DNA from: Anaerocaecibacter muris
Lineage (GTDB): Bacteria; Bacillota; Clostridia; Christensenellales; Pumilibacteraceae
Assembly (NCBI RefSeq): GCF_943192945.1
Contig: NZ_CALPCE010000001.1
Location: 124,001 to 188,000 of the forward strand
DNA: 64,000 bases
Direction: 5' to 3'
Below the pieces are notes generated by a model that searched no databases, was not told where the DNA came from, and was given only the letters and a program-made list of their open reading frames with translations. The stretch's first letter is position 1. The number at the start of each line of letters is the position of its first letter. A program made the translations under genes and the position numbers. Positions 5,740 through 30,859 of this stretch are shown piece after piece.

Positions 5740-5838
5740 CGCGCCGCGTAAAGTTGCGGCGGTTCGCGTCCGCAGTGTCTTTATATTATCGACAGTAACA
5801 TATTTTGCTCGGTTTGTGTCAAATTTGTGTTAAACTAC

Positions 5839-5867
5839 TTGACATTAGGGGGGTGGGGGTATATTAT
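5839..5867 (+). promoter_or_regulatory. Promoter for the 25-kb AAA/surface-protein operon
   Basis: TTGACA (5839-5844), a 17-bp spacer containing a G-run, and TATTAT (5862-5867). Transcription would start near 5874, about 24 nt before the ATG at 5898. This is the only strong sigma-A-type promoter I see before the eight-gene run, whose gaps are all under 90 nt. Confidence 0.7.
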
Positions 5868-5897
5868 AATATAGACGGTGCGGACAAGGGAGTAGAT

Positions 5898-6596
5898 ATG
5901 GCAGTTTGGATTGTGGCGTTAATAGCGATAGCGGCGGCGTTTGTGACGTTGTCGGGTTTCGTGTTGCCGCGACTGCTGTTTTACACCAAGTACGACGTAA
6001 ACGGGTCGAGCGACCGAGGTATCAAAAAAGTGGACGACGAAGGAAGCGTCGTTTTCGAGCCGTCGCCCGAAGTGAAAAAGTTTATAAGCGGGTACGCGCT
6101 GTCCGTGCGCGACGGCAAGCGCGTGCTTGTTTGCAAGCTCGCCCAAAAATTAGCGTACATAGATTACGACGTTATCGTTTTCGATAAAGACGATAAAGTT
6201 TTGCGCGTGTTCAATATTAAAGAGAACGTTACGGACGGCGAGTATACGCGGGTCGTGGAACTGCCCGACGTTACCGAATACGTTTCGCTTATGATAAACG
6301 AAGCGGACGGGCAAACGTTTAAGCATAAAGTCGTAAAAAACGTTTCGGCGGGACGGGTGTGCGCGTTTATCGCATGCACGGCGGCGTTGATAGCGGCGGC
6401 GGTTTTCGGCATTAAAATTTGTTGTGCGTACCTGTTTGCGGGTTTGTTCCGCGAAAGTTTTATCGTGCTCGGCAAAAGCAATACGGTCACTGCGATAATC
6501 GCGGCGATAGCTGTTGTAATAGATATTATATTTACGGTAATTGCGTTTGCCGTCAGGCGCGCGACGACAAAGGGCGGGAAGTATGGCGGACGTTAA
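5898..6596 (+). CDS. Small membrane protein, first gene of the AAA/surface-protein operon
   Basis: 232 residues from the ATG at 5898, preferred over an upstream in-frame TTG because GGGAG lies just before it and the promoter sits at 5839-5867. There is one hydrophobic segment at the N-terminus (MAVWIVALIAIAAAF onward), a polar region of about 120 residues, and two more hydrophobic segments near residues 155-222, ending in the basic tail RRATTKGGKYGGR. The positive-inside rule suggests the polar domain is cytoplasmic. That domain (DGKRVLVCKL...VIVFDKDDKVLRVF...LPDVTEYVSLMI) resembles in layout the cytoplasmic head of the next protein (DGRKYLVPRF...VCITQYAADGAEL). No known family recognised. 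Overlaps the next gene by 14 nt, suggesting translational coupling. Confidence 0.75.
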   Translation: MAVWIVALIAIAAAFVTLSGFVLPRLLFYTKYDVNGSSDRGIKKVDDEGSVVFEPSPEVKKFISGYALSVRDGKRVLVCKLAQKLAYIDYDVIVFDKDDKVLRVFNIKENVTDGEYTRVVELPDVTEYVSLMINEADGQTFKHKVVKNVSAGRVCAFIACTAALIAAAVFGIKICCAYLFAGLFRESFIVLGKSNTVTAIIAAIAVVIDIIFTVIAFAVRRATTKGGKYGGR

Positions 6597-9500
6597 GGTT
6601 TTACATAAAAAATCGTGTTCTGTTCCGTCGTCGGACAAACTTGTATACGTCAAGCAGTTTATGATTGTCGAGGAGGACGGGCGCAAGTATCTTGTGCCGA
6701 GGTTTGTCAATTCCCGTGCGGAACAAGTCACTGCGGTGCGCGTGTGCATTACGCAGTACGCCGCTGACGGTGCGGAATTGTCACGTTCCGAAACGAGGTT
6801 GCGCGCTAACGGCGCGGCGGGCAAACCGTTTGTAGCCGACGGAAAAATACCGTTGTCCGACGACGCGGAAGATTGCAAAATAAAAGTGCTTGCCGCGGAG
6901 TACGGCAAGTATATGTACAAGCCCGACGGCAACACCGTCGCAATCGATTACAACGCGCATGCGGACGAACTTGACGATACGGACGGCGCGACGCGCGCGG
7001 CGTTAGCCGCAAAAGCGGGCAAGTCGGGCATAACGATAACGCGCCGCACGGCTAAAATGCCCGTGCTTGTTATTTTTGCGCTTATCGTCGCGCTTGCGCT
7101 CGCGGCGGGCGCGGTGTTTGCGCACCTTAAATATTTTGTAGCGCACGAAAAAACGTTTTTGTATTCGGGCGTAGAGTATGCGTTCGAGGACGACGACAAA
7201 TCGAACGGCAGTAATATTTACGTCGTAGGTTTTCACGGCGGCAGATCACGCATTGTTATTCCGGACGCGATAGAGGGGCACAAGGTTATTGCGATTGCCG
7301 ATAGCGCGTTTGCGGGCAACAAGAGTCTTACGAGCATAGGCTTTAAGTCGGAAATTCCCGTCGGCGCGAGCGCGTTTGAAAACTGTGTCAACCTGCGCGA
7401 AGTCGAGTTCGACAAGATTACGAGCATAGGCGCGGGCGCGTTCAAAAACTGCGTAAAGCTGGAAAACGTCGTAATAAACAATAATATTTCGCTCGTTCCG
7501 AAGGACGCGTTTAACGGCTGTGCCGCGCTTACTACCGTCATCGTTACCGACGGCGAAACCGACATAGAAATCGGGTCGCGCGCATTTGCAAACTGCAAGA
7601 GTTTGAAAAACGTTGAGTTTTTGCGCAATATCGATTATTCGTATAATCGCGGACAGCGCGATTGGTTTACGGGATCGACGGTGCAACGACTACGCATAAA
7701 CAATTACGAACTCAATCCTTACGGAATCAACGCTATATCTTTGATGTTCGGTAAGAGCGGCGCAAACACGCTGTCGGACGTCTTGCTAAAAGAGCTTGTT
7801 ATAGACAACCTCGATCGCATACCTGTCGAATTTTGCGCTAATTTGCCGCTCACGGCGTTTGAAGTAAAGAACATAAACTCTACCGAGATAAACAGCCGCG
7901 CGTTTTTAAACTGCAAATATTTGAGCAAATTCGCATTTCCCAAAGCTATTACAGCCGTTTACGACAGCGCGTTTTACAACACCGCAATCACCGCGTTTAA
8001 CGGCAGCGCGCTAACCGCGATAGGAAACGACGCGTTCGGTAGATGCGTCGACCTTAAAACTTTTACGACTGCGGGCAACACTCTTTTACAGGAAGTGGGC
8101 GAGCGGGCGTTTGCGGGGTGCGAGTCGCTTGTTTCGTTTACAGTGCCGAGCGGAGTAACCGAGTTTTCGTTGTTAATGTTTGAAAACTGCACGTCGCTCG
8201 CGGAAATCAAATACGCGCGCGGAACGTCAATCGGCAAGATTCACAACGGCGCGTTTTACGGTTGCACGGCGTTGGAAAAATTCGATCTTCCCGACGGCGG
8301 TCTTACGACAATCGGCGATCAAGCGTTTGCAAACTGTTCCGCGCTCCAACGCTTTGACGTTACCGAGGCGGTGGCGTATATCGGCGATTTTGCGTTTAGC
8401 GGTTGCAAGTCGTTTACTTCGTTTACCGTGCCGGACAGCGTTTATTCGTTCGGCAACGGCGCGCTTCGCGGTTGCGACTCGCTTACCGAATTGACCGTGC
8501 CGTTTTTGGGCAATTCGCGCGGATACGAGTCGTATATCGCTTATACGTTCGGCGCGACAAACAGATTTTCGGACGGTAAGAATTACTTGCCGTCGTCGCT
8601 CGCTACCGTAAACGTTACGGGCGGAAACGTTATAGACAGCTATGCTTTTAACGGCTGTTCGGATATAATCGAAATCAATCTGCCGCAAACAATCGATACA
8701 ATAGGCGCAAATGCGTTTGCCGCGTGCGCGTCGCTTAAAGAATCGAATATTCCGGTCGGCGTTACAACAATAGGCGAGCGCGCGTTTAACGGTTGTTCGG
8801 CATTGACCGAACTTATAGTGCCGCGCGGCGTTACGAGCATTGGCTTGGATGCGTTCGGCGGGTGTACCGCGCTTAAAAAGTTGATCGTGCCGTTTGTCGG
8901 CGGAACTGCCGACGCGTATAGCTATTTGGAATACGTGTTCGGCAAGCAGGATATCTGGACGGACGGAAACGTTTACGTTCCGTCGTCGCTCGAAAGCGTC
9001 GAGGTTACAGCCGCGACGAGGTTGGGCAGTTATGCGTTTGCGAACTGCGCGGGCGTTCGCGAAATCAGCTTGCCCGACAGTCTTTTGAATATAGGTTCGC
9101 ATGCGTTTGCCGACTGTGACGCCTTGATTTCGCTAACGGTTCCGAACAGCGTTACTCAATTAGACAGAGGCGCGTTTTACGGCACGTCGTTTGAGGAGTT
9201 GACGTTGCCGTTTGTCGGTCGGGCGCGCGCAGAGTACGCCGACGACGGCGACGAGACAAAGAGATTATCGTATTTGTTTAACGGCGACAATTATTTTATT
9301 CCGCAACGGCTTAAAAAGATAACTCTGACCGACACCGAATATATCGCAGACAATGCTTTTTCGGGTTTTGGATATATCGAACAAATAGCGCTCGATTGTG
9401 CCGTCGAGCATATTTCCGCAAATGCGTTTAACGATTGTTACAGACTGTTCGAGGTGTTTAATTACGGCAGTCGGCTTAATATTGTAAAAGGATCGGATGA

Positions 9501-12500
9501 TAACGGCGGTATTGCGCGTTACGCGTTGAAAGTACATACGGACAGAACGGAAGAACCGTTGCCGCAGTACAAGTCCGACCATTACAGATTTGTCCGCGAC
9601 GACGACGGTAATACGTACATGCTCGATTGCGATAGAGAAGAAAATTTGGTGTTGCCGAGCGTTGTTAACATTGACGGCATAACGATTAACAGCTATTCGG
9701 TGTGGCAATACCTGTTCTATCTTGATTGCGTTATACGGAGCGTTTTTATTCCGGCGAGCGTTACGTATTTGGGCGAATCCGCATTTAATAATTGTTATAA
9801 TTTGGAATCGGTCGAGTTCGAGGCATCGTCGCCGATTACCGAAATAAAAGAAAATACTTTTATGTACTGTCGATTCTTGCACGAACTTATTTTGCCGCAA
9901 CGTCTTAACAAGATAGGCGCGTGGGCGTTCGGTTCATGTTCTCGGCTCAAAAAAGTGACGGTGCCGCGCACTGTCGGGGTTATAGACGATAACGCGTTCT
10001 TCGACTGTAAACGACTTTTCGAGGTGTACAACCGCAGTTCGCTCAATATCGTTGCGGGAAGTGCGACGCACGGCGGAATAGCGGCTAACGCTTACGCTGT
10101 GTATCGCGACGAGTCGCAGAGTATAGAAAGCGTTACGATAAACGGCGTTCAGTACATGAAGTTGTGCGACGGCGGTATAGATTGGTGGGCGGTCGATTAT
10201 TACGGCACGGACGGCGTATTGGAAATTGTGCCGTTCACGCACGACGGCACGACGGTAGGGCGCATTGGCATTTACGAAAGCGCGTTTGTCGAATATTATA
10301 ACGTGGAAAAAGTTACGGTAAGCAATGCGGTCGCGCGCATAAATAACGAGTTTTCCGCTTGCTTTAATTTGCGCGAATTCAAACTGACGGGAGGCGGCGC
10401 GAACGCAAAAGTCGAGATTGCCGACGAAGCGTTTGCTTACTTATCGCTCAATGTGTTTACAGCCGACGCGCCGGTTTCGTCTATCGGCAGACATGCGTTC
10501 AGAACGGACAATATGTCGCGCGCAAACTTTGCGGCGCGAGTGGACAGAGTGTGCGCGGAAGCGTTTTTCAGCGAAACCGATTCGGGTAGCATGTCTGCTC
10601 AATTTGCGGAAGTAGGCATTTTCGAGTCCAACGCCTTTACTTCTGCAAACATCGAATCGCTTAACGTTGCGGGCAGTACGGAAACAATAAACCAAAACGC
10701 ATTTAACGGTCTGGACTTGAAAACAGCCGCGTTTAACGACGTGGGAACAATCGGCACGTATGCTTTTTCCGATTGTTACAATCTCGAAACCGTTACGTTC
10801 GGCAATGTGAATACGATAGACGAATACGCGTTTAAAAATTCGAGAATGAAAAGCGCGAATTTCGGAACGGTCGGAACGATCGGCGCAAACGCGTTTGCGC
10901 GGTGCGGCGCGCTAAATACCGTTTCTTTGGCGCAAGGCGACAATCTTGTTATCGGCAATAATGCGTTTGACACGAGCGGACTATCTTCGTTTGTTTACGG
11001 CGGAAGGATAAGTTCCATAGGCGATTATGCGTTTAATAGATGTTCGAATCTGACCAAAGTCGAGTTAGGCGCAGTAAGCGTTATAGGCGCAAACGCTTTT
11101 ACGGACTGTTCGTCGCTCATGTCCGTCGCATTTACGGGAAACGTCGATGATATAGGCGAGAGCGCGTTTGCAAACACGCCCGTTAATACGCTCGATTTCG
11201 GCGGAAATATAGGGCGTATTCGATCGTATGCTTTTAACCGTACAAGCGTTCAATCATTGGTCTTTGCAAACGACGTCGGCACGATAGACGGTTATGCTTT
11301 TCAATATTGCGTTGCGCTTAAACGCGTGGAGTTTAAAGGCGCGCTCGCGTCGCTCGGCGACGGAGTTTTTTCCGGCTGCAATGGGTTAAATTCCGTTGTT
11401 TTGCCGCGCGGACTGCGCGTGATTGCGCCGCATACGTTTGACGGTTGCTCGTCGATCGAAGAGATTATCGTGCCGCAAGACGTTGTCGAGATCGGCAACT
11501 TGGCGTTCGCCAACTGTTATAATTTGCACAGAGTGGAATTGCCCGCGTCTTTAAGTCGCGTCGTTTCGGGTGCGTTTAGCGGTAGCGATTATATATTCGC
11601 GGTGTACAATCAAAGCGCGCTTGAATTGTCTGGCGATATGTTCGGCGACGTGCTTGTCGTTTCTTCTGACAGAAGTAAAACGCTTTTGACGTATCATACC
11701 GAAAACGAATTTGCTTTTGTCAAGGCGGACGGAACGTGGTACTTGTACAACGTAATGTACACCTCCGATGTTACGACGATATTGCCCGATTATTTTATTG
11801 CGGACGGCGAAAGAATAGAGCGTTACAAAGTGCGCGGCGGCGCGACCGGATTGGCAGGAAGAAACTTGCTCGTTAGCAAGAGCGTAACGGGCTTGCGCCG
11901 CAACGCCTTGCGCGAGAACATATCGATAGTGTACTATGACGGAACGGCGCAACAGTGGCGCAATCTCGACGGGTCGAGTTACGTTACGGCGTCCGTGCTG
12001 TTCAGATCGGACTGTATACACGAGGGGAGCGCAGACGGGCTGTGGCGGTATAGCGACTATAACACCCCGACAACCGCATATACGACTTTTGCGGATAGCG
12101 CGTGGACGGTCGTAAAACAATCGACGTGCAAAGAGAACGGCTTGCGCGAAGCCGATTGTCCGCATTGTAAAAAGAAGATAACGGAAACCATCGCAAAATC
12201 GGCGCACGTTTTCGATAAAGACGGGAAGTGCACCGTGTGCGGTAAGATGCGCACCGTAGTAACTTCGGACAACGTTTCGAGTATCGGCGCGATTAAAAAC
12301 GACAGCGGAAATCCGTTTGAGGTTTCCGCCGACGGCGTTATAAAATCCACTAACAAAAATGACGGTTCATCCTCGACGTTTACTTTGACGGCGGACGGCG
12401 CAATGGATGTGGCGTTTGATATTCGCGTGTCGTCGGAGGATTCATACGATAAATTCAAGGTTGCGTTAAACGGCAGGGAGTTGTACTCGATTTCGGGCAA

Positions 12501-12639
12501 CAACGCGCAAACAGGCATAACGCTGTCGCTTAAAGTAGGCGACAAGATTACGTTTACTTATTCAAAAGACGGTAGCGGCAGTAGCGGCGACGATTGCGGC
12601 TATATTATTAACCTTGCCCTCATCTACGCGGAGGATTAA
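6583..12639 (+). CDS. Giant BspA-like leucine-rich repeat protein, membrane anchored
   Basis: 2018 residues from the ATG at 6583 (longer in-frame starts at 6541 lack a ribosome site). Layout: a polar N-terminal head of about 155 residues with no signal peptide; a basic stretch then one membrane helix (about 160-180, VLVIFALIVALALAAGAVFA); then dozens of LRR_5/BspA repeats of the form IGxxAFxxCxxLxxVxxP to about residue 1750; then a Cys-rich stretch (CPHC...CTVC) and a C-terminal beta-rich domain of about 120 residues. Orientation should be head inside, repeats outside. BspA-type proteins of anaerobes bind host matrix or other cells, so an adhesin or recognition role is plausible but unproven. 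No LPXTG or other sorting signal is present. The next gene starts 7 nt after the stop. Confidence 0.85.
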   Translation: MADVKVLHKKSCSVPSSDKLVYVKQFMIVEEDGRKYLVPRFVNSRAEQVTAVRVCITQYAADGAELSRSETRLRANGAAGKPFVADGKIPLSDDAEDCKIKVLAAEYGKYMYKPDGNTVAIDYNAHADELDDTDGATRAALAAKAGKSGITITRRTAKMPVLVIFALIVALALAAGAVFAHLKYFVAHEKTFLYSGVEYAFEDDDKSNGSNIYVVGFHGGRSRIVIPDAIEGHKVIAIADSAFAGNKSLTSIGFKSEIPVGASAFENCVNLREVEFDKITSIGAGAFKNCVKLENVVINNNISLVPKDAFNGCAALTTVIVTDGETDIEIGSRAFANCKSLKNVEFLRNIDYSYNRGQRDWFTGSTVQRLRINNYELNPYGINAISLMFGKSGANTLSDVLLKELVIDNLDRIPVEFCANLPLTAFEVKNINSTEINSRAFLNCKYLSKFAFPKAITAVYDSAFYNTAITAFNGSALTAIGNDAFGRCVDLKTFTTAGNTLLQEVGERAFAGCESLVSFTVPSGVTEFSLLMFENCTSLAEIKYARGTSIGKIHNGAFYGCTALEKFDLPDGGLTTIGDQAFANCSALQRFDVTEAVAYIGDFAFSGCKSFTSFTVPDSVYSFGNGALRGCDSLTELTVPFLGNSRGYESYIAYTFGATNRFSDGKNYLPSSLATVNVTGGNVIDSYAFNGCSDIIEINLPQTIDTIGANAFAACASLKESNIPVGVTTIGERAFNGCSALTELIVPRGVTSIGLDAFGGCTALKKLIVPFVGGTADAYSYLEYVFGKQDIWTDGNVYVPSSLESVEVTAATRLGSYAFANCAGVREISLPDSLLNIGSHAFADCDALISLTVPNSVTQLDRGAFYGTSFEELTLPFVGRARAEYADDGDETKRLSYLFNGDNYFIPQRLKKITLTDTEYIADNAFSGFGYIEQIALDCAVEHISANAFNDCYRLFEVFNYGSRLNIVKGSDDNGGIARYALKVHTDRTEEPLPQYKSDHYRFVRDDDGNTYMLDCDREENLVLPSVVNIDGITINSYSVWQYLFYLDCVIRSVFIPASVTYLGESAFNNCYNLESVEFEASSPITEIKENTFMYCRFLHELILPQRLNKIGAWAFGSCSRLKKVTVPRTVGVIDDNAFFDCKRLFEVYNRSSLNIVAGSATHGGIAANAYAVYRDESQSIESVTINGVQYMKLCDGGIDWWAVDYYGTDGVLEIVPFTHDGTTVGRIGIYESAFVEYYNVEKVTVSNAVARINNEFSACFNLREFKLTGGGANAKVEIADEAFAYLSLNVFTADAPVSSIGRHAFRTDNMSRANFAARVDRVCAEAFFSETDSGSMSAQFAEVGIFESNAFTSANIESLNVAGSTETINQNAFNGLDLKTAAFNDVGTIGTYAFSDCYNLETVTFGNVNTIDEYAFKNSRMKSANFGTVGTIGANAFARCGALNTVSLAQGDNLVIGNNAFDTSGLSSFVYGGRISSIGDYAFNRCSNLTKVELGAVSVIGANAFTDCSSLMSVAFTGNVDDIGESAFANTPVNTLDFGGNIGRIRSYAFNRTSVQSLVFANDVGTIDGYAFQYCVALKRVEFKGALASLGDGVFSGCNGLNSVVLPRGLRVIAPHTFDGCSSIEEIIVPQDVVEIGNLAFANCYNLHRVELPASLSRVVSGAFSGSDYIFAVYNQSALELSGDMFGDVLVVSSDRSKTLLTYHTENEFAFVKADGTWYLYNVMYTSDVTTILPDYFIADGERIERYKVRGGATGLAGRNLLVSKSVTGLRRNALRENISIVYYDGTAQQWRNLDGSSYVTASVLFRSDCIHEGSADGLWRYSDYNTPTTAYTTFADSAWTVVKQSTCKENGLREADCPHCKKKITETIAKSAHVFDKDGKCTVCGKMRTVVTSDNVSSIGAIKNDSGNPFEVSADGVIKSTNKNDGSSSTFTLTADGAMDVAFDIRVSSEDSYDKFKVALNGRELYSISGNNAQTGITLSLKVGDKITFTYSKDGSGSSGDDCGYIINLALIYAED

Positions 12640-12646
12640 CGGCACG

Positions 12647-15600
12647 ATGATTAACAACGCTCAAATTATACGGAATATGACGGAAGACCAAAAGATCGCG
12701 CTTGTGGCGGACTTCAACGCCGCGGCGGGCGAGGCTTATACCGCGCTCGGACTTCCAAAGACGGAAAGCGCGACCGCGGACGACATTAACCGCGTTTACG
12801 GCGGCGCGACCGCTTATCCCGATTTATCGCGCCTTGCCGAATCGTGGAACGTAAAGCTCGCCGAAAACGTCGTAACCGATTTGTTAAAGCGCAACGGCAC
12901 GGAAAAATTTTCGTTGGTGCGCACGCCGAGCGTTGCCGTAAAACTCAATCCGTATTCTTCGGGCTTGTCCGAAGACCCGTATTTAAACTCCAAGTTTGCG
13001 GGCGCGTTTGCGACCGCGATAGAAAACTGCGGAGGCGCGGCGTGCGTCGGCGGACTGGGTTTGAATAATATCGACGTCGAATATCTTGACCGAGCGCCTA
13101 ACGCCGCGCTGTTGAGCAATGTTGTTGCTCGCCCGTTTTTTTCGGTTGTTAATAACCGCGCGCCGAGCGCGTTGAGTATATCTTATTCGCGCGTAAAGGG
13201 CGAATATAAGGACGTGAATACCGCTGTCGCCGCGCGCATGCTCAATATGAACGCGCTCAAATATGCGATTGCCGAAAACGTTTACGAGGAAGCTATGCGG
13301 TCGGGGCTATCCCAATCCAAACTGCTGTTTGCGGGCGCGTCGGCTTCCGCTATCCGCGCGGCTTTAAAAAACTACTCGCGAATGAAAGAGGACGTTGAGC
13401 GCGGCTCGGTCACTCTCGGCGAGCTTGAAAAAGCCGTTGCCGCAGGCACGGCGATAAGCGACGAAATGCTGTACATGGCTGTCGATAAGGTTATCGATTT
13501 TATCGGCGCGATCGTGCGCGTCCGCGACGTTTACGGAAATTCCGCGGCGGACGGTGACGGCGAGGGAGAAAACGCGCCCGCGCCCCGTCCGGAGGACAGC
13601 GGCAAACAGTTTTCGCTATTGGCTTCGCAGGAATCCATCGTGCTGTTGAAAAACGACGGCGCGCTTCCCGTGACTAATGCGGTAAAGGTTGCGACGTTCG
13701 GGCAAATCGCGCGCGAATATGCCGATTTCGACGGCGCGGTTGCAAGGCTGTGCAATCAGCGCGGCTGTTCGTATTCGGGGCATGCCGACGGCTATGCGCT
13801 TGACGCGGACAGAAGCGACGAGCTGTTGGAAAACGTCGCGGCGCTTGCGCGCTCTGCGGACGTGGTTGTGGCGTTTGTCGGGTTGGGCGCGCGGCGCGAA
13901 GCGCGGTTGGCGGAAACAAAAAGCGTAAAGCTCCCCGCAAACCAGCGCGCGTTGATTGCCGAGCTTGAAAAGTCGGGCAAAACGCTTATCGTCGCGGCGG
14001 CGGGCGGCGTGCTTCCCGACGTTTCGACTTGCGGCGCGCCAAACGCGTTATTGTACGCTCCGCTCGGCGGTTGCCGCGGCGCGGAAGCGTTGTTCAATAT
14101 TATTTTCGGCGTGGTAAGCCCGTCGGGTAAACTCGCGTTTACCGCTTACGCCAATACCGACGAAACTTTTGCGCGGCAAAAATCGGAGGTCGCGGCGGGA
14201 CGGTACAAAATAGGCGAGTTCGTCGGATACAGGCGGTACGCGACCGAGGGCACGAACGTAGGATATCCGTTCGGGCACGGGCTGTCGTATGCGGACTTTG
14301 CGTATTCCAATCTTAAAATAAACGACGGCAGCGTCGAAGTCACGGTGCGCAACAACAGCGCGCGCGCGGGCTTCGAGGTGGCGCAAATGTACGTGGGCAA
14401 ACGCGATTCGGCTATAGTAAGGCCGTTGCGCGAGCTTAAAGGCTTTGCCAAAGTTATGATTGCGCCCAACGCCGCAGTGCAAATAACGTTCCCCATAAAC
14501 GCCGCAATGCTCGAAACTTTTGACGTTGCGGACGGGACGCGCAAGACCGAGGGCGGGGTTTACGACGTTTATATAGGTTCGTCGTCCACAGATATTCGGC
14601 TCAAAGGCGAAATAACCATCGCGGGTGCGACGTTGCAATCGCGCGGCGACATGCTGTCCGACTATCTGCCCGCGATTTCAAATATAGCTTCGGGCGAGTA
14701 TAAACTCAATACGGTGGCAAAATCCGCGCCCGAAAACGGCGGCGGGTTTAAGTCCGCAAGAGCGGGCGACAGCTTTTCTTACGAGCGGTTGTTCGAGGAC
14801 GAGTTCGGCACGGACGAGGACGAAGAAGTTTATTCGGACGGCGACGGGGACGACGATATATCGGTCTACCTCGACGACGGCGTTACGATTAAAACGATTG
14901 CGGACGGGCTTATTTCGTTCGCATCGAGCAAGGGTTGTAAAATCGACGCGGACAGCGCGCGCGAGCTTATAGGCGCAATGACCGCGACGCGCGCTGTGCT
15001 TTTGGACTGCGACGAAAATACGTTCGAGCGCGTTGCGGAAGTCGTTTGCGGGTACTTCGGTTGCCCCGTGTTTAAGGACGATATTTCGGACTGCGAGGAC
15101 GGCGACGCGCTATTCCGCGGCGGCGCGGAAGTCGGCGTTGTCGCGGCGGCTAAATATGCGGCGGGTCGGCGCGAAGCGGCGACGTTTGTCGCGTTGGACG
15201 GGGTCGTTCCGTCGCGGCTGGGAACGGTGTTCGCGCCGTTTATACGCTATTCCACCGCGCCCGACAGTACGGCCGTAACGTTCGGCGCGGCGCGGCGAAC
15301 GCTCGACGTTCCGCCCAACATGTGGTTTTTGATGCGGCTTGCCGACGGCAGAAAACAATTCCCGGCATACGTAGCGGACATGGCGAGCGTGATTTCGCCC
15401 AAGGCGGAAACAGTGCGGGCGACAGAAGATAGCGACGCAGTTGCGCCTAATTACTATCAGTTTATCGCGGCGGCGGAAAGCGCGGAGCGCGAGTACGAAA
15501 TAGACGAGGCGTTGTGGAAAAAAGCAGACAAGCTCGAAAATTACGTCGCGGCGCGCGCGCAGTTTGCGATAGGCAATAAGCTGTGCGTGCAAATGGAAAA

Positions 15601-15808
15601 GATAATAGCCTCGGCTATGGCTTGCGGCGCGGAGCCGACGGACGCGCTCGATTGCGCGGTCGCGGTCAAACTTATTCCGCTTTGCATTTCCGTACTCGAC
15701 GGCGTGTTGACTGCGGACGACGATGATTTTGCGGTCACTGTCGATAACATTTTCGGCGAGGACGTTATGCCGCGTTGCAAGTTCGCCGTAAAACGGACAA
15801 AGGCGTAA
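12647..15808 (+). CDS. GH3-like pseudo-glycosidase fused to a degenerate McrB-like AAA domain
   Basis: 1053 residues; start at 12647 because GAGG lies 9 nt upstream (in-frame ATG at 12614 rejected, it overlaps the previous gene). Residues 1-690 follow the GH3 beta-glucosidase fold order: SEDPYLN, ESIVLLKNDGALPV (about 328), GVVSPSGKLAFTAY, GYPFGHGLSYADF (about 540), and an FnIII-like domain (VRPLRELKGF). Key GH3 residues are missing: the KH motif is replaced by GLGLNN, and the nucleophile segment (usually VMSDW) reads LLFAGAS. After an acidic linker, residues 745-1053 align without obvious gaps to the neighbouring AAA ATPases (TIKTI...ARELI; PPNMWF; IGNKL; FGEDVMPRCK), but Walker A is lost (CDENTFERV) and Walker B LDE is LDG. 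No signal peptide, so cytoplasmic. Probably a non-enzymatic binding or scaffold protein (inference). Confidence 0.75.
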   Translation: MINNAQIIRNMTEDQKIALVADFNAAAGEAYTALGLPKTESATADDINRVYGGATAYPDLSRLAESWNVKLAENVVTDLLKRNGTEKFSLVRTPSVAVKLNPYSSGLSEDPYLNSKFAGAFATAIENCGGAACVGGLGLNNIDVEYLDRAPNAALLSNVVARPFFSVVNNRAPSALSISYSRVKGEYKDVNTAVAARMLNMNALKYAIAENVYEEAMRSGLSQSKLLFAGASASAIRAALKNYSRMKEDVERGSVTLGELEKAVAAGTAISDEMLYMAVDKVIDFIGAIVRVRDVYGNSAADGDGEGENAPAPRPEDSGKQFSLLASQESIVLLKNDGALPVTNAVKVATFGQIAREYADFDGAVARLCNQRGCSYSGHADGYALDADRSDELLENVAALARSADVVVAFVGLGARREARLAETKSVKLPANQRALIAELEKSGKTLIVAAAGGVLPDVSTCGAPNALLYAPLGGCRGAEALFNIIFGVVSPSGKLAFTAYANTDETFARQKSEVAAGRYKIGEFVGYRRYATEGTNVGYPFGHGLSYADFAYSNLKINDGSVEVTVRNNSARAGFEVAQMYVGKRDSAIVRPLRELKGFAKVMIAPNAAVQITFPINAAMLETFDVADGTRKTEGGVYDVYIGSSSTDIRLKGEITIAGATLQSRGDMLSDYLPAISNIASGEYKLNTVAKSAPENGGGFKSARAGDSFSYERLFEDEFGTDEDEEVYSDGDGDDDISVYLDDGVTIKTIADGLISFASSKGCKIDADSARELIGAMTATRAVLLDCDENTFERVAEVVCGYFGCPVFKDDISDCEDGDALFRGGAEVGVVAAAKYAAGRREAATFVALDGVVPSRLGTVFAPFIRYSTAPDSTAVTFGAARRTLDVPPNMWFLMRLADGRKQFPAYVADMASVISPKAETVRATEDSDAVAPNYYQFIAAAESAEREYEIDEALWKKADKLENYVAARAQFAIGNKLCVQMEKIIASAMACGAEPTDALDCAVAVKLIPLCISVLDGVLTADDDDFAVTVDNIFGEDVMPRCKFAVKRTKA

Positions 15809-15819
15809 TGGAGGGAGTT

Positions 15820-17208
15820 ATGGCGAGCGGCTTCGGTTGCGCAACTGAATACTTAAACAGCATGGGCGACGTGTGGGATTATCTATCGTCGGGCTACGCC
15901 TTGCTCATTTACGCCCTGATTATTATCGTGTTGGTGGGGCTTTTGATCGCCTCGGTGCTGATAGCCGACAACAAGTCCAAAATAATAATCGACAAAAACC
16001 CCAACGCGCCGCAAGAGCGCGACGCGCTTGACGGCAAGGATAAGCCCGACGATTCGGACAAAAAATCAAAAGACGAGCGTGCGGCAAAACTTAAAAAAAG
16101 CAAAAATTCCGCGCCCGAAAAAGCAAATAACGGGGAGCGGTTTCCGACGCTAATAAAGATAGACCGCGAAAAAGAGAAGTACGAACGAAGCGACTACGAC
16201 GAAAGTATAACGCTTAAAACTCTGTGCGAAAACTTGCGGAACTACGCGGCGAACCAAAAACTGTATTACGACATAGAGGATATACGACGGTTTATAGCGG
16301 GATTGAGCGTGTCGCATATCATGATACTGCAAGGCATGTCCGGCACTGGAAAAACGTCGCTGGCGTATGTGTTCGGGAAGTATTTGGATAACCCGTCAAC
16401 AGTAATACCGGTACAGCCGATGTGGAAAGAACGCACGGACTTACTGGGCTATTACAACGAGTTTACCAAACAGTTCAACGAAACGCCGTTGCTTGAAAAG
16501 ATGTACGAAGCTAACTACGGGAAGGATATATACGTAACGGTGTTGGACGAAATGAATATAGCGCGAGTGGAGTATTACTTCGCGGAGTTTCTGTCAATGC
16601 TGGAAATACCGGACGCGGAAAAGCGGTATTTGACGGTAGTGTCGAGCCAATGGGAGAAAGACCCGAAACTGTTGAAAGAGGGCATGATAAAACTACCGGA
16701 CAACATGTGGTTCATAGGTACGGCAAACAACGACGACAGCACGTTTGCAATATCCGACAAAGTGTATGACCGAGCAATGGTAATGAACTTGGACAACAAA
16801 GCGGAGCCGTTTATAGCGGCGAAAGAACGGACGGTGCATATAACAGCGGAACGGTTTAACGCAATGGCGACAGCGGCGCGAAAAGAATACCGCATGACAA
16901 AGCGAAACGAACGGCGACTGGAAATGCTGGATAAGTACATGATAGAGCATTTTCACGTGACGTTCGGCAACCGAATAATGACGCAGATACGAAAATATAT
17001 TCCCGTGTATGTAGCGTGCGGCGGGGATGAATTGAACGCGCTTGACGACATACTGTCAAAAAAGGTGTTGAGGAAGATAGAAACGCAAAACCCGATATAT
17101 GTAAAGAACGCGGCGGAAGGTTTTTGCCGCTACCTCGACGACCTGTTCGGCGACGACAAAATGCCGCTGTGCAAACAGCTTATGCGCAGGTTTGAAAAAA
17201 ATATTTAA
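15820..17208 (+). CDS. Membrane-anchored McrB-like AAA+ ATPase, copy 1
   Basis: 462 residues from ATG 15820, preceded by GAGGGAG; an ATG at 15808 overlapping the previous stop (TAATG) is an alternative. One membrane helix at residues 26-49 (YALLIYALIIIVLVGLLIASVLIA), then a charged Lys/Asp linker, then the ATPase. Motifs: Walker A GMSGTGKTS (about 172), Walker B VLDEMNIARVEYYF (about 242, the McrB-type signature), sensor 1 GTANNDDST (about 300), and DRA with a probable arginine finger (318). The ATPase should face the cytoplasm. McrB proteins usually form hexamers that drive an McrC partner; the partner candidate is the next gene. Residues from about 98 onward are encoded by the repeated cassette shared with copy 2. 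Confidence 0.88.
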   Translation: MASGFGCATEYLNSMGDVWDYLSSGYALLIYALIIIVLVGLLIASVLIADNKSKIIIDKNPNAPQERDALDGKDKPDDSDKKSKDERAAKLKKSKNSAPEKANNGERFPTLIKIDREKEKYERSDYDESITLKTLCENLRNYAANQKLYYDIEDIRRFIAGLSVSHIMILQGMSGTGKTSLAYVFGKYLDNPSTVIPVQPMWKERTDLLGYYNEFTKQFNETPLLEKMYEANYGKDIYVTVLDEMNIARVEYYFAEFLSMLEIPDAEKRYLTVVSSQWEKDPKLLKEGMIKLPDNMWFIGTANNDDSTFAISDKVYDRAMVMNLDNKAEPFIAAKERTVHITAERFNAMATAARKEYRMTKRNERRLEMLDKYMIEHFHVTFGNRIMTQIRKYIPVYVACGGDELNALDDILSKKVLRKIETQNPIYVKNAAEGFCRYLDDLFGDDKMPLCKQLMRRFEKNI

Positions 17209-17291: not shown

Positions 17292-19598
17292 ATGAGCTAT
17301 CTTGACACACTCTATCGCGCGTTTGCGGATTTTCGCAGGAATACTGCGGACGACCGCGAATGTGCCGCGCACCGCCGCGACGTTGCCAAGATCGACGCAG
17401 AAAAAGACTGCGTCGAGGTTACGCGCGTAGTTTGCGATATAGAGAACGACTGGATAGACGCGATAGAGGACGGGCTTGCTTTTGTGGAAAAGGCGCTCGC
17501 CGAGGAGCGACAGTTCATACGCGCCGACGGCGAAATAGTGCCGATAGAAAAGGTCAAGCGCGTGTCGCGCGATTCGGTGGAGCACCTATCGCGGCACAGC
17601 AATCTTATAACAAAAAAGAGCACAGGCGACAATCTTATCCCCGAACAGCTTTACACGGTCGAACGGCTTAACGACTATGCGGTGTACGAAAACAGGTTTT
17701 TGTACATGCTTTTGACCTATCTTAACGAGTTTATCGGCATGCGGTATATGCGCATACTCGACTTGACAAATACTTATCAAGGCAGTTTGGATCTTGAAAA
17801 AACAGTGGAAACGCGGCACAAGCAAATCAAGTACAAATTGAGCCTTGACGAAAAGTTGCGCGACGATCCGATCATGCGCGAACTTAATCCAAATAAGGAC
17901 GTGATCGAGCGCATAGGCATGTTGCTTAAAACGGTTAATCATTACATGTCCACGCCGCTCATGGAAGAAGTATCCAAAGCCGCGCTGTTAAAACCGCCCA
18001 TAACCAAGACCAACGTCCTTAAAATGGACAAAAACTTTAAGGGCGCTGTCGCGCTTTACGAATATATTTCGTCGTATGACAAAGACGGGTACACCGTCGA
18101 AACGGTCAAAAAGAAGATGCGGTTTTCCGAGCTTGTCGCGGACGAGTTTGCCGAGGCTTACGCGCTGTCCGCGTTCTTGACGTATCAGTACGGCATGGGC
18201 ATTAAAGACATGCTCAAATCGCGATACGACGAGGAGGAAATGCGGCGCAAGGCGATTGCCGAGCAGGAACACCTTGACAAACTGCGCAAACTTCGCCGCA
18301 GGATAGTCGAGTCGGGCGAAAGTCCCGAGGAATATATGCTGTTGCTCGAAAAGCAGTTGCGCGTGTTCGAGGGCATACATCAAAAACTGTCCGACGCGCT
18401 CGACGAGGTCGATAGGCTCAACGGCGAAATAGAAAACCTGCACGGCGAAATAACCGCGCTTACGCAAAAGACGGACGAGCTTAACGCGGAAATCGCGCGG
18501 TTGGAACGCAAGTACATAGACGATATGGCGGAACTTCGCGCCGAGCATGAGCGCGAGCTGTCGGAACTTAACGACAGCCACCGCGAACAAGTGCAAGCGT
18601 TGTTGCAGTCGCACGCGGAAGAAATTGCCGAGCTTAACGACAACTGGCAAGCGCAAATCGACTACATAGCGCAACAGCACAAAAACGAGCTTGACGAACT
18701 GCGCGAAAAATACGAACGCGAGGCGACCGAGCTTAAAGCGGCGCACGCGGCGGAGCTGGAAAATATCGAGGCGGAGCATGCCGCGCAAATACAACAAAAG
18801 ACCGAGGCAATAGCCGAGCTTACCGCGCGGAACGCACGGCAAGCCAAAACGCACGCCGAGGAGCTTGCCGCGCTCGACGGCAGATATAAACGCGAGATGG
18901 AAACGCTTAACGCGGAAATGGAAAAAAAGGAGCAAGCCGTTCTCGACGTAAAAGCGGAAAACAGGTTGCTCTCCGACCTCAAAACTTTGTCGGACGGACG
19001 GCTTAACGCGTTGCGCCACGAATACGGCTTGACGGACGAGGCGGATGACTTTACGACCGAAGCCGCGTTTAACGAGCTCGAACATCAATATAATTCGTTC
19101 AGGCGGTTTTTCAAAGGCGAGTGGAAAAAAACCAAAAAGAAAATTCGCGCCGAGCTATTGCACGCTTATAGCATTGCGGACGGGGTGCTCGGCGAGGACG
19201 GCGCGACCGCGAATAACGTTTCGGGCGTGTACTCTATTGTCAACGTCAAAAAGTCGGAAGCGACCGACGCGGGCGCAGATTTTTCGAGTATAAAAGATAA
19301 AGTCGGCAATAATGCGGACAGCGTCGAGAACGTCGGCGAGGATAGCGCGCAAGGCGCGACCGAGCGGCAAAACGCGACGGAAGAACGTGTCGGCGACAAA
19401 AAGCCGAGCGCGCAAAAAAACGCGCAACGCAAATCGACTGCTTCTGCGCGCACTGTAAAACGTCCCGCGCAGGCGGAAAAACAGGTCGAGCAAGACGGTA
19501 AGACAGCGTATAGCGAAGTGCCTATACGCGCTACGGTTGCGGAGAATTCTATGCCCGACGCGAACGGCAAGGAGGACGGCGGTACGGACAATGCGTAA
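17292..19598 (+). CDS. Coiled-coil protein with DUF2357/McrC-like N-terminal region
   Basis: 768 residues, ATG with AAGGAGA upstream (spacing somewhat long). Residues about 40-180 resemble the DUF2357 region found beside McrB-like ATPases, including WIDAIEDGL and the motif VYENRFLYMLL. Residues about 313-575 form a long charged coiled coil (heptads of AEL, EEIAEL, LDELREKYERE). A basic helical block follows (FFKGEWKKTKKKIRAELL) and then a low-complexity Ala/Lys/Glu tail of about 140 residues. No signal peptide or membrane helix is visible, and no PD-(D/E)xK nuclease motif as found in McrC. It sits exactly between the two McrB-like ATPase genes and overlaps the second by 8 nt. Likely an adaptor or stator for those ATPases (inference). 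The DUF2357 link rests on motif recognition only. Confidence 0.7.
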   Translation: MSYLDTLYRAFADFRRNTADDRECAAHRRDVAKIDAEKDCVEVTRVVCDIENDWIDAIEDGLAFVEKALAEERQFIRADGEIVPIEKVKRVSRDSVEHLSRHSNLITKKSTGDNLIPEQLYTVERLNDYAVYENRFLYMLLTYLNEFIGMRYMRILDLTNTYQGSLDLEKTVETRHKQIKYKLSLDEKLRDDPIMRELNPNKDVIERIGMLLKTVNHYMSTPLMEEVSKAALLKPPITKTNVLKMDKNFKGAVALYEYISSYDKDGYTVETVKKKMRFSELVADEFAEAYALSAFLTYQYGMGIKDMLKSRYDEEEMRRKAIAEQEHLDKLRKLRRRIVESGESPEEYMLLLEKQLRVFEGIHQKLSDALDEVDRLNGEIENLHGEITALTQKTDELNAEIARLERKYIDDMAELRAEHERELSELNDSHREQVQALLQSHAEEIAELNDNWQAQIDYIAQQHKNELDELREKYEREATELKAAHAAELENIEAEHAAQIQQKTEAIAELTARNARQAKTHAEELAALDGRYKREMETLNAEMEKKEQAVLDVKAENRLLSDLKTLSDGRLNALRHEYGLTDEADDFTTEAAFNELEHQYNSFRRFFKGEWKKTKKKIRAELLHAYSIADGVLGEDGATANNVSGVYSIVNVKKSEATDAGADFSSIKDKVGNNADSVENVGEDSAQGATERQNATEERVGDKKPSAQKNAQRKSTASARTVKRPAQAEKQVEQDGKTAYSEVPIRATVAENSMPDANGKEDGGTDNA

Positions 19599-20973
19599 AG
19601 CAAAGCGAATAAAATACGCCGTCTGTATTACGACGTTCGTCATAGTGAGCGCGCTATTGTTAGCGGCGCTCGGCACGTACATAGGCGGAGAGCGCGCGTT
19701 CGATTTTGCGCTTGTGCGCTCCGAAACGATGTACGTGTGCGTTACGCTCGCGGTTATTTTGCCGCTTTTGATAGTCGCGTTTATTTTTGTCAACCTGCGG
19801 CGCAAAACGCACATAACGCGTATTAGCGACACGTCCGCGCCCGAAGTTCAAGCGGGCGACGTATCGGACGAGCCTACGCCCGAAAAAGCAAATAACGGGG
19901 AGCGGTTTCCGACGCTAATAAAGATAGACCGCGAAAAAGAGAAGTACGAACGAAGCGACTACGACGAAAGTATAACGCTTAAAACCCTGTGCGAAAACTT
20001 GCGGAACTACGCGGCGAACCAAAAACTGTATTACGACATAGAGGATATACGACGGTTCATAGCGGGATTGAGCGTGTCGCATATCATGATACTGCAAGGC
20101 ATGTCCGGCACGGGAAAAACGTCGCTGGCGTATGTGTTCGGGAAGTATTTGGATAACCCGTCAACAGTAATACCGGTACAGCCGATGTGGAAAGAACGGA
20201 CGGACTTACTGGGCTATTACAACGAGTTTACCAAACAGTTCAACGAAACGCCGTTGCTTGAAAAGATGTACGAAGCAAACTACGGGAAGGATATATACGT
20301 AACGGTGTTGGACGAAATGAATATAGCGCGAGTGGAGTATTACTTCGCGGAGTTTCTGTCAATGCTGGAAATACCGGACGCGGAAAAGCGGTATTTGACG
20401 GTAGTGTCGAGCCAATGGGAGAAAGACCCGAAACTGTTGAAAGAGGGCATGATAAAACTGCCGGACAACATGTGGTTCATAGGTACGGCAAACAACGACG
20501 ACAGCACGTTTGCAATATCCGACAAAGTGTACGACCGAGCAATGGTAATGAACTTGGACAACAAAGCGGAGCCGTTTATAGCGGCGAAAGAACGGACGGT
20601 GCATATAACAGCGGAACGGTTTAACGCAATGGCGACAGCGGCGCGAAAAGAATACCGCATGACAAAGCGGAACGAACGGCGACTGGAAATGCTGGATAAG
20701 TACATGATAGAGCATTTTCACGTGACGTTCGGCAACCGAATAATGACGCAGATACGAAAATATATCCCCGTGTATGTCGCGTGCGGCGGGGAGGAACTTA
20801 ACGCATTGGACGACATACTGTCAAAAAAGGTGTTGAGGAAGATAGAAACGCAAAACCCGATATATGTAAAGAACGCGGCGGAAGGTTTTTGCCGCTACCT
20901 CGACGACCTGTTCGGCGACGACAAAATGCCGCTGTGCAAACAGCTTATGCGCAGGTTTGAAAAAAATATTTAA
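19591..20973 (+). CDS. Membrane-anchored McrB-like AAA+ ATPase, copy 2
   Basis: 460 residues from the ATG at 19591, which overlaps the previous stop (ATGCGTAA). AAGGAGGA lies upstream at 15-nt spacing, so coupling is likely. Unlike copy 1 it has two membrane helices (residues 8-31 and 47-69) forming a hairpin, again placing the ATPase in the cytoplasm. From PEKANNGERF (about residue 96) to the end it differs from copy 1 by one residue (Glu for Asp in CGGEEL). All ATPase motifs are intact: GMSGTGKTS (about 170), LDEMNIAR, GTANNDDS and DRAM. Two ATPases with the same motor and different anchors suggest a mixed hexamer or two related complexes (inference). Confidence 0.88.
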   Translation: MRKAKRIKYAVCITTFVIVSALLLAALGTYIGGERAFDFALVRSETMYVCVTLAVILPLLIVAFIFVNLRRKTHITRISDTSAPEVQAGDVSDEPTPEKANNGERFPTLIKIDREKEKYERSDYDESITLKTLCENLRNYAANQKLYYDIEDIRRFIAGLSVSHIMILQGMSGTGKTSLAYVFGKYLDNPSTVIPVQPMWKERTDLLGYYNEFTKQFNETPLLEKMYEANYGKDIYVTVLDEMNIARVEYYFAEFLSMLEIPDAEKRYLTVVSSQWEKDPKLLKEGMIKLPDNMWFIGTANNDDSTFAISDKVYDRAMVMNLDNKAEPFIAAKERTVHITAERFNAMATAARKEYRMTKRNERRLEMLDKYMIEHFHVTFGNRIMTQIRKYIPVYVACGGEELNALDDILSKKVLRKIETQNPIYVKNAAEGFCRYLDDLFGDDKMPLCKQLMRRFEKNI

Positions 20974-21054: not shown

Positions 21055-24000
21055 GTGAATAAAAGCAAAACAGTAAAAAAATCGAAATCGGTATATATTA
21101 TCGGATCGATAACTATCGGCATTATCGCGCTTCTCGCGGTGTACCTCATACTCATAGCGACTGGCGTAATATCCGCCGAGCCCATACGCATAACCGTGTC
21201 GACAGAATCCGCCGTATCGGAATACGACGGCGAAAAATTGACCGCCGACGGTTGGGAACTTTCGGACGGCAAACTCAAAGACGGGCACACGCTTAAAGTG
21301 ACGGTCACGGGCGGGCAAACGGAAGCGGGCGCAAGCAAAAACACCGCCGTCGCAACCGTGCTCGACGAAAAGGGTTACGACGTTACGGACAGCTATAAAA
21401 TCACTTTCGATGCGGGCACGCTCGAAGTCACACCGCGCATGATTGTCGTGCGGTCGGCAAGCGCGGAAAAAATATACGACGGCACGCCGCTCACTGCGGA
21501 CAGCTGTTCGCTTGCGGAAGGCGAATTGCTTGCGGGGCACGAAATTAAATACACCGTAAACGGCACGCTGACGGGATCGGGAAAAACAAACAACACTTTT
21601 GTCGCGACGGTGACGGACGGCGCTCGCGACGTGTCGCACAACTACAATATAAATTACCTGTACGGCACGCTGTACGTGCACGGCGAAAAGCTGGAAATTT
21701 TGACGCACACGGCGCAAAAGACTTACGACGGCGCCGCGCTCACTTGCGATAAATGGACGCTGTCGAGCGGCGTTTTGCGCAACGGCGATAAGTTATCCGT
21801 TACTGTGCTCGGCAGTCAGACCGAAGTCGGCACATCGCAAAACATAGCTTCGTGCGTGGTTACAAACGCGTCGGGCGAAAACGTGACCGACTATTACGAG
21901 CCTGTGTTCACTTACGGCACGCTCACCGTCGAGCCTATAATCATACTTATAGAAACTCGACCCGCGTACAAAGTTTACGACGGCACGCCGCTCGCGAGTG
22001 ACGGCTGGCGTGTAGTAACCGACGATACGCTCGCTACCGACGATTGGAACGCGTCGGGCGACAGCGTTACGGTCGGCGAATACACGGTTACGGCAAACGT
22101 CGTCGGCAGTCGCACGGACGTCGGAATATCGGACAACAATGTTTCGGGCGTGTCGGTCATGTCGAACGGGCAGGTTGCCGACTGGGTGGAAGTGCGCTAC
22201 AAGTTGGGCTTGCTCAACGTTACGGCGCGCAATCTTACAGTCAAGTCGGGCACGGCGAGCAAACCGTTTGACGGCACGCCGCTCACTTGCGACGAATACG
22301 AAGTGGTGTCAATGACAAAAGTTGCGGACGGTCAAACTCTGACTGTTATAATTTCGGGCACTGCTACTTTTGTCGGAACGGTTGCCAACACCATTGCGGA
22401 AGTGATTATAAAAGACCAAAACGGCGAGGACGTTACGCGTAACTACAACATTAAATTGCAAGAGGGGCAACTTGCTATACTCGGCGATGACGGAGGCACA
22501 GGCGGTAACGAGGGCGGCGACGGTTCGGGTGATTTAGGCGACGACGGGAGTTTGGGCGGCGACGAACAGGACGAGCCGAAGCTCGCGCTTAAACTGCGTT
22601 CCGATCGCGACGGCGAGGTCTATTTGCGGTACAAGAGTTTCGGTGCGTACAACGGCGGCGGGTTTGACGAAGCCGCGGAGTACGGCGGTACGGGGTTAGG
22701 CGACGGACTGGGTATGAACTATTTGACGGGCGCGGCGCTCGCTGTGGCGGGGTACGAATACTATCGCGCAGAGCTCGAACTTGTAAACACGTCGCAATAT
22801 TTCTTGCCGTACTATTTGAGCGTCGAACAGCTTGGCAGTACGCCGCAGGCGAGCGACGTTGTGTATACGGGCAATCAGTCCGTATATGCGGCATACTATT
22901 ATGCGTATAACTACATAGCGGACGGGGGCGCGGCGACGGAGGGCGTTGCGCTCGGATCGTTGTCGGCGGCGGAACTTGCTTACCGCGCGTTTGCGTATGC
23001 CGAGTATTGCGGGCTGCCCGATTTTACGCGCGAATACGTCGATAAACTGATTGCCGATAACGGTTTTGCGGATTTGCCGCTTGCCCAAAAAATTTCCGCG
23101 GTGGCGAACTATGTGCGCAATGCGGCGAAGTACAATAAAAAATACGACGTTGCACTCGACGCCGAAGCGGACGTAGCGGTCGCGTTTTTGGATAGATATA
23201 AAGAGGGCGTTTGTCGGCATTACGCGGCGGCGGCGACGGTTATATTTCGCGCGCTCGGTATTCCGTCGCGGTATGTCATAGGCTACACGGCGCAAGCCAA
23301 AAACGGCGAGTGGGTGGAAGTCACTACGGACAAAGCGCACGCGTGGACGGAAGTGTATATCGACGGTGCGGGCTGGGTGTTTATAGAGGTCACGGGCGGC
23401 GGCGCGGGCTTCGACGGCACGGGCGGATCGGGTTCTACCGGAATAGGCAATCCCGACAGCGATAAAAAACTCAATATAAAACCGTTCGACGTGTATTTGA
23501 ACGTCGCCGATTTCGACGGTTCGCCACTTACATATACGCTCGACAGATTGCAGGGCTTGTCCGATTTGGAAGCCGCGGGCTGTCGTTATGAGTTTGCGGT
23601 CGAGGGATCGCAAAGCAAGGTCGGCATAGGCGAGAGCAAAATAACCGAATTTAAACTGATTGACGGGTACGGCAACGACGTTACCGACGAATACAATATA
23701 ACGCTGTCAACAGGCAAACTTCACATTTACGTGCAGGAGATCACGGTGCGCACGGAGTCGCTCGAAAAGGTTTACGACGGCGGTGCGTTGCGATCGGCGG
23801 AGGGCGAAGGCTATTCGTGCGCGGGCACTATGCTCGACGGGCACAGCATTGCTTCGGTCGTCATGACGGGTAGCCGTAAAAACGTCGGGCGCAGTTCCAA
23901 CACGTTTGAAATAACCGTGATCGACGCGAGCGGCGCGGACGTGACGTATATGTACAAAGTTAATGCGGAGTTGGGCGTTTTGCGCGTTACTGCGCGCACT

Positions 24001-24301
24001 ATAACCGTCACGGCGGATTCCGCAGTGGGATATTTTAACGAACTTAACGGCGCGGCGCTTGTTTGCGGCGAATATACCGTAACGGGCGAGGACGGCGGAC
24101 TTGCCGACGGCGACGAAGCGACGGTCACTATCAGAGGCGAGCAAAGCGTTATAGGCAGGAGCGAGAACACCGTGGAAAAGGTGGTAATCAACAATGCCGA
24201 CGGCGAGGACGTTACGTCCAATTACGTTATTAAATGCGTAAGCGGAACGCTTACCGTAGTGCCGCGCCGTCCCGCAAATACCGCGGAGGAGGTTGTAAAC
24301 T

Positions 24302-24321
<20 letters not shown>
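21055..24321 (+). CDS. MBG/YDG-repeat surface protein with transglutaminase-like domain
   Basis: 1088 residues with a GTG start, supported by the perfect ribosome site AAGGAGGT at 21043-21050. A basic N-terminus and one membrane helix (13-39) anchor it with the rest outside. Five MBG/YDG-type repeats follow, each starting near a KxYDGTPLT motif and ending GTLxVTPR. Then a Gly/Asp linker, a domain of about 90 residues, and a transglutaminase-like core: Cys720 (GVCRHYAAA), His762 (AHAWTEVY) and, where Asp is usual, Glu778 (WVFIEVTGG). About three more repeats close the protein. The domain could be a peptidase or cross-linking enzyme acting on the cell surface. No sorting signal. Its C-terminus overlaps the start of the next, larger homologue by 20 nt. 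Confidence 0.85.

Positions 24322-30859
<6,538 letters not shown>

Follow-up and report, generated by a model that had tools for sequence, protein, structure and literature searches.

An anciently inactivated McrB-type AAA+ domain fused to a GH3-like protein beside two active paralogues in Clostridia

The GH3-like fusion gene and its neighbours

The locus considered here encodes two intact McrB-like ATPases and, at the C-terminus of the GH3-like protein that precedes them, a third relative in which the catalytic motifs are degenerate. What would such a copy do beside its active paralogues, and is it a working domain or a decaying one? We addressed this question in a stretch of 64,000 nucleotides of Anaerocaecibacter muris (the window), whose relevant features are as follows.

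5805–6596, + strand: small membrane protein with ~3 TM helices, a conserved upstream gene
6541–12639, + strand: TM-anchored BspA-type leucine-rich repeat protein, a conserved upstream gene
12647–15808, + strand: GH3-like/pseudo-AAA fusion gene, 1053 aa (open reading frame; ATG 12647 and TAA 15806–15808 read directly)
13637–14290, + strand: Glyco_hydro_3_C domain (PF01915, Pfam)
14375–14587, + strand: Fn3-like domain of GH3 (PF14310, Pfam)
14864–15805, + strand: pseudo-AAA domain, an inactivated McrB-type AAA+ large subdomain with a C-terminal lid
14996–15034, + strand: degenerate Walker A segment, VLLDCDENTFERV compared with MILQGMSGTGKTSL in the active copies
15185–15205, + strand: degenerate Walker B segment FVALDGV, catalytic Glu gone and Asp retained
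15311–15391, + strand: PPNMWF sensor-1 strand retained; sensor-1 Asn/NxD motif and YDR arginine gone (VADMASV)
15506–15529, + strand: lid signature ExxWKxxD
15820–17208, + strand: active McrB-like AAA gene 1 (AAA1), with one N-terminal TM helix and an intact P-loop
17292–19598, + strand: protein with a DUF2357 (McrC N-terminal-like) domain and a long coiled coil, in which no nuclease domain was detected
19591–20973, + strand: active McrB-like AAA gene 2 (AAA2), with an N-terminal TM hairpin
21055–24321, + strand: TM-anchored transglutaminase-core protein with repeated domains, the conserved next gene
24302–30859, + strand: another large TM-anchored protein carrying a Transglut_core domain, likewise a conserved cassette gene

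ATG 12647 is most likely the start codon of the fusion protein, and the resulting length of 1053 residues means that the residue numbers of the original prediction match ours. The pseudo-AAA domain covers residues ~745–1053, the C-terminal third of the protein. In the GH3-like part, the TIM-barrel region upstream of Glyco_hydro_3_C is degenerate and lacks the KHF motif and the nucleophile Asp, and neither is conserved across 30 aligned GH3-like proteins. An active GH3 glycosidase is ruled out by these losses; for this part, a role in binding or as a spacer is more likely than catalysis. It probably lies in the cytoplasm; inspection by eye revealed no signal peptide in the protein. With a GH3 part (12647–14590) that also lacks its catalytic motifs, the protein is a double pseudoenzyme.

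The two active ATPases have nearly the same core and different membrane parts. AAA1 has a probable start at ATG 15820, preceded by ggaggg, and hydropathy gives one TM helix for AAA1 and two for AAA2. In the window the cores share 98.4% DNA identity; 12 of 22 genomes have cores that are 98–100% identical, although the genomes differ by 15–35% in protein. This points to concerted evolution of the cores, probably by gene conversion. The protein encoded between them matches DUF2357 (PF09823) just over the threshold, with 24.7 bits against a cut-off of 23.3. In its AF2 model, which is of low confidence (pTM 0.39), the N-terminal part is folded, a single helix spans ~230 residues and the tail is disordered; a Foldseek search with this model gave no match below E 0.1, the McrC finger domain included. 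Thus, the Pfam domain and the neighbourhood are the basis for linking this protein to McrC. No Pfam match to a PD-(D/E)xK nuclease domain was obtained for it, and no nuclease, RNase or toxin domain was found among the cassette genes scanned. The consecutive transglutaminase-core/repeat proteins (21055–24321 and 24302–30859) are 31% alike in part.

Homology to McrB and loss of the catalytic motifs

We compared the pseudo-AAA domain with the active ATPases at the levels of sequence, profile and fold. BLASTP aligns it with AAA1 at 74.7 bits (E = 6e-19, 22% identity, 390 columns). A chance alignment is ruled out, since against a score of 73 bits for the true sequence the best of 1000 shuffled sequences reaches ~31 bits (30.8) and the other window proteins score at most 23 bits. 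An hhalign comparison of 10 pseudo-AAA orthologues with 11 active ATPases gives a probability of 99.9% (E = 5e-31, 307 columns), in agreement with the original prediction that this region aligns with both neighbouring ATPases. The motifs quoted in that prediction were located as well: TIKTI at 14885, CDENTFERV within 14996–15034, LDG within 15185–15205, PPNMWF at 15311, IGNKL at 15569 and FGEDVMPRCK at 15752, all of them in columns shared with the ATPase motifs.

The AF2 model of the domain (pLDDT 79.8, pTM 0.81) has McrB (6hz4) as its top PDB match in Foldseek (probability 1.00, E = 1.3e-4), followed by NorQ/MoxR and dynein AAA modules, so that profile and structure comparison both find an AAA fold. 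Whole-chain TM-scores against the PDB matches are low (0.3–0.5) because the core and lid differ in orientation; the model therefore supports the fold family, but neither the precise placement of the two subdomains relative to each other nor the details of assembly. Searches of Pfam, NCBIfam and PADLOC gave no named family for the domain, and its membership in the McrB family follows from sequence and fold homology via the active paralogues, which align with Escherichia coli McrB at E = 1.3e-7. We conclude that the last ~310 residues form a true AAA+ domain of the McrB type that lost its activity long ago.

To describe the inactivation, motif residues were counted in an alignment of 34 pseudo-AAA domains and 54 active relatives. 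The Walker A Lys, the Walker B Asp and Glu, the sensor-1 Asn and the YDR Arg are present in all 54 active copies. Their Asn belongs to an N-x-D-[DE] motif and their Arg to VYDRAM; all 54, NRDE forms included, carry this NxD motif (N.D[DE]) instead of NxxD. The pseudo copies, by comparison, have the Walker A Lys in 0/34, the sensor-1 Asn of the NxxD/NxD signature in 0/34 and the trans Arg finger in 0/34, with Met at the last position in the window. The Walker B column holds Glu in a single pseudo copy (1/34; LDG in the window) and its Asp in 11/34, the window included. The last positions of the P-loop are gapped in 8/34, and no residue of the nucleotide pocket is conserved among the 34. The claim of a dead McrB-like AAA domain, made from the missing Walker A Lys and Walker B Glu, is thus strongly supported, and the sensor-1 Asn/NxD motif and the YDR arginine are to be added to its list of losses.

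In McrB structures, the arginine acts in trans on the nucleotide of the next subunit (PMC6624300). Its retention in the pseudo copy to complete the site of a neighbour is ruled out by its absence from all 34 domains; the pseudo copy has therefore lost both its own function and the one that serves the neighbour. Since residues acting in cis and in trans are both gone, the domain is very unlikely to hydrolyse ATP, a prediction that is well founded on the motif counts.

A degraded P-loop does not by itself imply complete inactivity. PcdA of Staphylococcus aureus belongs to the McrB family and has degraded Walker motifs, yet it is weakly active, hydrolysing nucleotide slowly, and it retains a remnant Walker A Lys, the Walker B Asp and one Arg finger (PMC10602043). 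The pseudo-AAA domain could likewise be a degenerate, nucleotide-responsive regulator that still binds or slowly turns over NTP, as the Walker B Asp kept in the window and in 10/33 other copies might suggest. However, of the three remnant residues of PcdA the window protein has only this Asp, and the uniform absence of Lys, Asn and Arg, the gapped P-loop ends and the unconserved pocket make such a regulator quite improbable.

Selection, distribution and descent

The pseudo-AAA domain gives dN/dS values of 0.16, 0.19, 0.10 and 0.25 in four genome pairs, similar to or below those of the GH3 part in the same genes; in the one comparable pair, the active copies are under tighter constraint (0.06–0.09). 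The domain is kept by purifying selection and is not decaying. Conservation is also distributed differently: in the active copies the core exceeds the lid (61% versus 41%), whereas in the pseudo copies the lid is slightly above the core (28% versus 24%). All 34 pseudo-AAA lids carry ExxWKxxD and a later Glu, and WKxxD occurs in 0/54 active copies. In the window the conserved positions are E965, W968, K969 and D972 when counted from the beginning of the open reading frame at 12614, each number being 11 lower when counted from ATG 12647. Judged by this pattern, the signature ExxWKxxD...E is the strongest candidate binding surface of the domain. Free drift of the catalytic residues is what a decaying, roleless third copy would display, but neutral decay is ruled out by the dN/dS range of 0.10–0.25 together with the invariant signature (34/34), and a neutral remnant is barely conceivable given that several families of the order have retained the domain.

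Two copies depart from the common form. An in-frame TAA at 15080–15082 of L036 lies within the pseudo-AAA domain of G028 and is either an error or a true truncation. In L037 (11122–15306, G030), an insert of ~200 residues, acidic and with 'QFDQNGxPIPxFD' repeats, stands between the AAA core and the lid.

At least 34 related gene sets carry the pseudo-AAA domain, and almost all of these sets come from gut bacteria. The domain spans several families of one order of Clostridia, as found in one genus-/family-wide and one order-wide search; the order-wide count of 110/396 includes active relatives as well as pseudo-AAA domains. A phylum-wide sample gave matches in 0/397 other genomes, only the window's own genome being matched. 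The named carriers are MAGs of uncultured gut bacteria, several of them from horse, deer and goat to judge by the record titles, and Acholeplasma equifetale. The last, which is outside the order, has a stand-alone TM-hairpin pseudo-AAA beside an active AAA (L061, 9128–10429), and horizontal transfer is possible in this case. Plasmid carriage was rejected, as tblastn with the domain found no match in a plasmid collection.

The arrangement of the genes is conserved together with the domain. Pseudo-AAA is followed by AAA1–DUF2357–AAA2 in 19 of the 21 readable loci, so that the set of two active relatives and one inactive relative, predicted from the window, is strongly supported by its repetition. 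The 19 complete loci (the window, L030, L032, L033, L053, L056, L116–L127 and L129) are those in which the contig continues far enough. L028 and L059 have one AAA followed by the transglutaminase gene, and a whole-genome search did not recover the missing DUF2357 gene of the cassette. Because the AAA1/AAA2 repeats are nearly identical and many contigs end there, assembly collapse is likely at L028 and L059; assemblies break or seem collapsed at this repeat in L028 (8575–10038), in L059 (11058–12437) and at many contig ends.

The two-AAA cassettes L038, L128 and L130 were searched for a hidden pseudo-AAA upstream of AAA1 and none was seen; thus, the domain is not essential to every two-AAA machine. 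No adjacent pseudo-AAA was found in the inspected sets of a single AAA with DUF2357, and the BspA leucine-rich repeat gene is absent or short at some loci. L086, L093, L094 and L095 represent a different, single-AAA membrane variant, in which an active AAA carries ~8–10 TM helices as a fusion (951 aa and similar lengths), followed in L086 and L093 by a DUF2357 gene.

The 34 pseudo copies comprise 31 GH3-like fusions, one fusion to a ~9-TM protein (L080) and two stand-alone domains (L061 and L127), each behind a TM hairpin. In a tree of pseudo and active copies, a branch supported at 100/99 has all 34 on the same side. Since the tree is midpoint-rooted and the stand-alone domains of L061 and L127 sit on very long branches, it does not fix the order of the fusion events. 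Hydropathy places TM helices between GH3 and pseudo-AAA in 16 of the first 22 GH3 fusions and in all those examined later; the six of 22 without them are the window's own clade, which has lost the TM hairpin. In most GH3 fusions outside this clade, the helices are just N-terminal of the pseudo-AAA domain and resemble those of AAA2, and the domain may well descend from an AAA2-like, hairpin-bearing third copy.

Proposed role and comparison with known systems

We propose that the inactivated third AAA copy, fused to varied modules, is a constitutive non-hydrolysing subunit or dock of the membrane AAA1/AAA2 machine, a reading to which we assign a probability of about 60%. Fixed co-occurrence, shared layout and selection suggest a joint function of the pseudo-AAA domain with the AAA1/AAA2/DUF2357 machine. 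A third copy of the AAA gene in the operon, bearing a TM hairpin, would have lost catalysis and become fused to different N-terminal modules. The pseudo-AAA domain would then couple the non-catalytic GH3-like module to the membrane-anchored assembly of AAA1 and AAA2, which the DUF2357 protein would stimulate and which may act on envelope or surface proteins. Contact with the assembly, entry into its ring and this choice of target are all steps that we infer.

Inactive modules that fix ring geometry occur in hetero-oligomeric AAA+ machines such as the clamp loader, ORC and dynein (AAA5/6), although these belong to unrelated AAA clades and ring entry of the pseudo-AAA domain is hypothetical. In a ring, the domain would silence its own site and the arginine-dependent site of its neighbour. 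McrB hexamers have two loose, non-catalytic interfaces (F/A and A/B) flanking one subunit (PMC7680126), and a subunit without the cis and trans residues would fit this place, making the asymmetry permanent. A mixed ring with AAA1/AAA2 is thus a plausible idea, which the data allow rather than demonstrate. In its fullest form, which we put forward tentatively, the machine could be a membrane hetero-AAA+ ring in which an obligate dead subunit joins two active McrB-like copies with cores that stay identical in many genomes; the dead subunit would hard-wire an asymmetry that is only structural in homohexameric McrB and would tie the ring, via the GH3-like module, to an envelope or surface-protein task.

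The domain may equally stay outside the ring, since the residues of the McrB tight interface (SDK/YDR region) are lost in the pseudo copy. In such an arrangement, the ring would consist of active AAA1/AAA2 only, and the lid of an external adaptor would bind the ring or the DUF2357 coiled coil. The loss of the active-copy interface residues together with the catalytic ones, the position of the conserved surface in the lid and the two-AAA cassettes that function without pseudo-AAA are consistent with this arrangement. However, the domain retains the full two-subdomain AAA architecture, and it has its operon, layout and, mostly, membrane hairpin in common with the active copies. The data are almost as compatible with a dock outside the ring as with a mixed ring, and we regard the purely external adaptor as possible but doubtful.

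The ancestry of the ATPases also raises the possibility that the whole cassette is an anti-phage defence system with the pseudo-AAA/GH3 protein as its sensor. Besides McrB descent and an NxD motif as in CoCoNuTs (PMC11090510), this view can draw on the match of AAA1/AAA2 to the PADLOC candidate PDC-M26A (E = 1.6e-50), which covers part of the profile and is silent on function; a literature search on PDC-M26 found no paper. The composition and distribution of the cassette argue against it. No nuclease or toxin domain was found in the cassette, the partners are envelope proteins (BspA leucine-rich repeats and transglutaminases), and the DUF2357 and GH3 proteins have no relevant PADLOC family, only a weak DpdB match. 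Moreover, the cassette is common within one order and matched in none of the 397 other genomes of the phylum sample, and a defence system is accordingly an unlikely explanation.

Returning to the proposed subunit or dock, we compared the gene set with known systems. McrB of McrBC (6hz4, 6ut6; PMC6624300, PMC7680126) shares the AAA+ fold and a DUF2357/McrC-like operon partner; here, however, the pseudo copy lacks every catalytic motif, the active copies are membrane-anchored, and there is neither a nuclease nor a DNA reader domain. Among McrB relatives, it is the NxD branch that the active copies match, and the set resembles the CoCoPALM systems of that branch (PMC11090510) in the NxD[DE] motif, the TM segment on the AAA, the coiled coil on DUF2357 and the lack of a nuclease. 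It differs in the extra pseudo-AAA, the duplicated AAA genes and the leucine-rich repeat and transglutaminase proteins of the cassette, and the signal-peptidase family gene expected in a CoCoPALM operon was not found among the flanking genes scanned. The tandem of coiled coil and associated RNase or nuclease that marks CoCoNuT was likewise not seen, as the cassette genes scanned gave no nuclease domain.

PcdA shares the degraded Walker A, the lost Walker B Glu and a role other than restriction, and offers, by analogy, an earlier case of a degraded McrB-family AAA whose task lies outside defence (PMC10602043). It has tandem EVE domains, has lost its lid (the C-terminal helical bundle) and functions without an McrC, whereas the protein described here has active paralogues adjoining it, a lid that is its most conserved part, and no Pfam match to an EVE domain. 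By analogy of layout, the nearest system that may work in a similar way is that of the MoxR–DUF58–transglutaminase operons, such as bifidobacterial PFNA (PMC6803598), which share an AAA+ protein, a partner, a membrane transglutaminase and a surface repeat protein. MoxR is not of the McrB family, DUF58 is not DUF2357, and an inactive AAA partner is not described there. A literature search found no description of the present gene set.

McrB-family type IV restriction motors are rarely known outside defence. The cassette is a nuclease-less, membrane-bound McrBC derivative beside genes for surface leucine-rich repeat and transglutaminase proteins, and selection has maintained its inactive AAA partner in many species of a single order of Clostridia. 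Should the dead subunit enter the ring, it would open the steering of McrB-type motors by asymmetry to genetic study; should it be a dock instead, it would exemplify the re-targeting of such motors through domain fusion. That selection maintains the dead copy suggests that it is a fixed component of a membrane machine that does no work itself.
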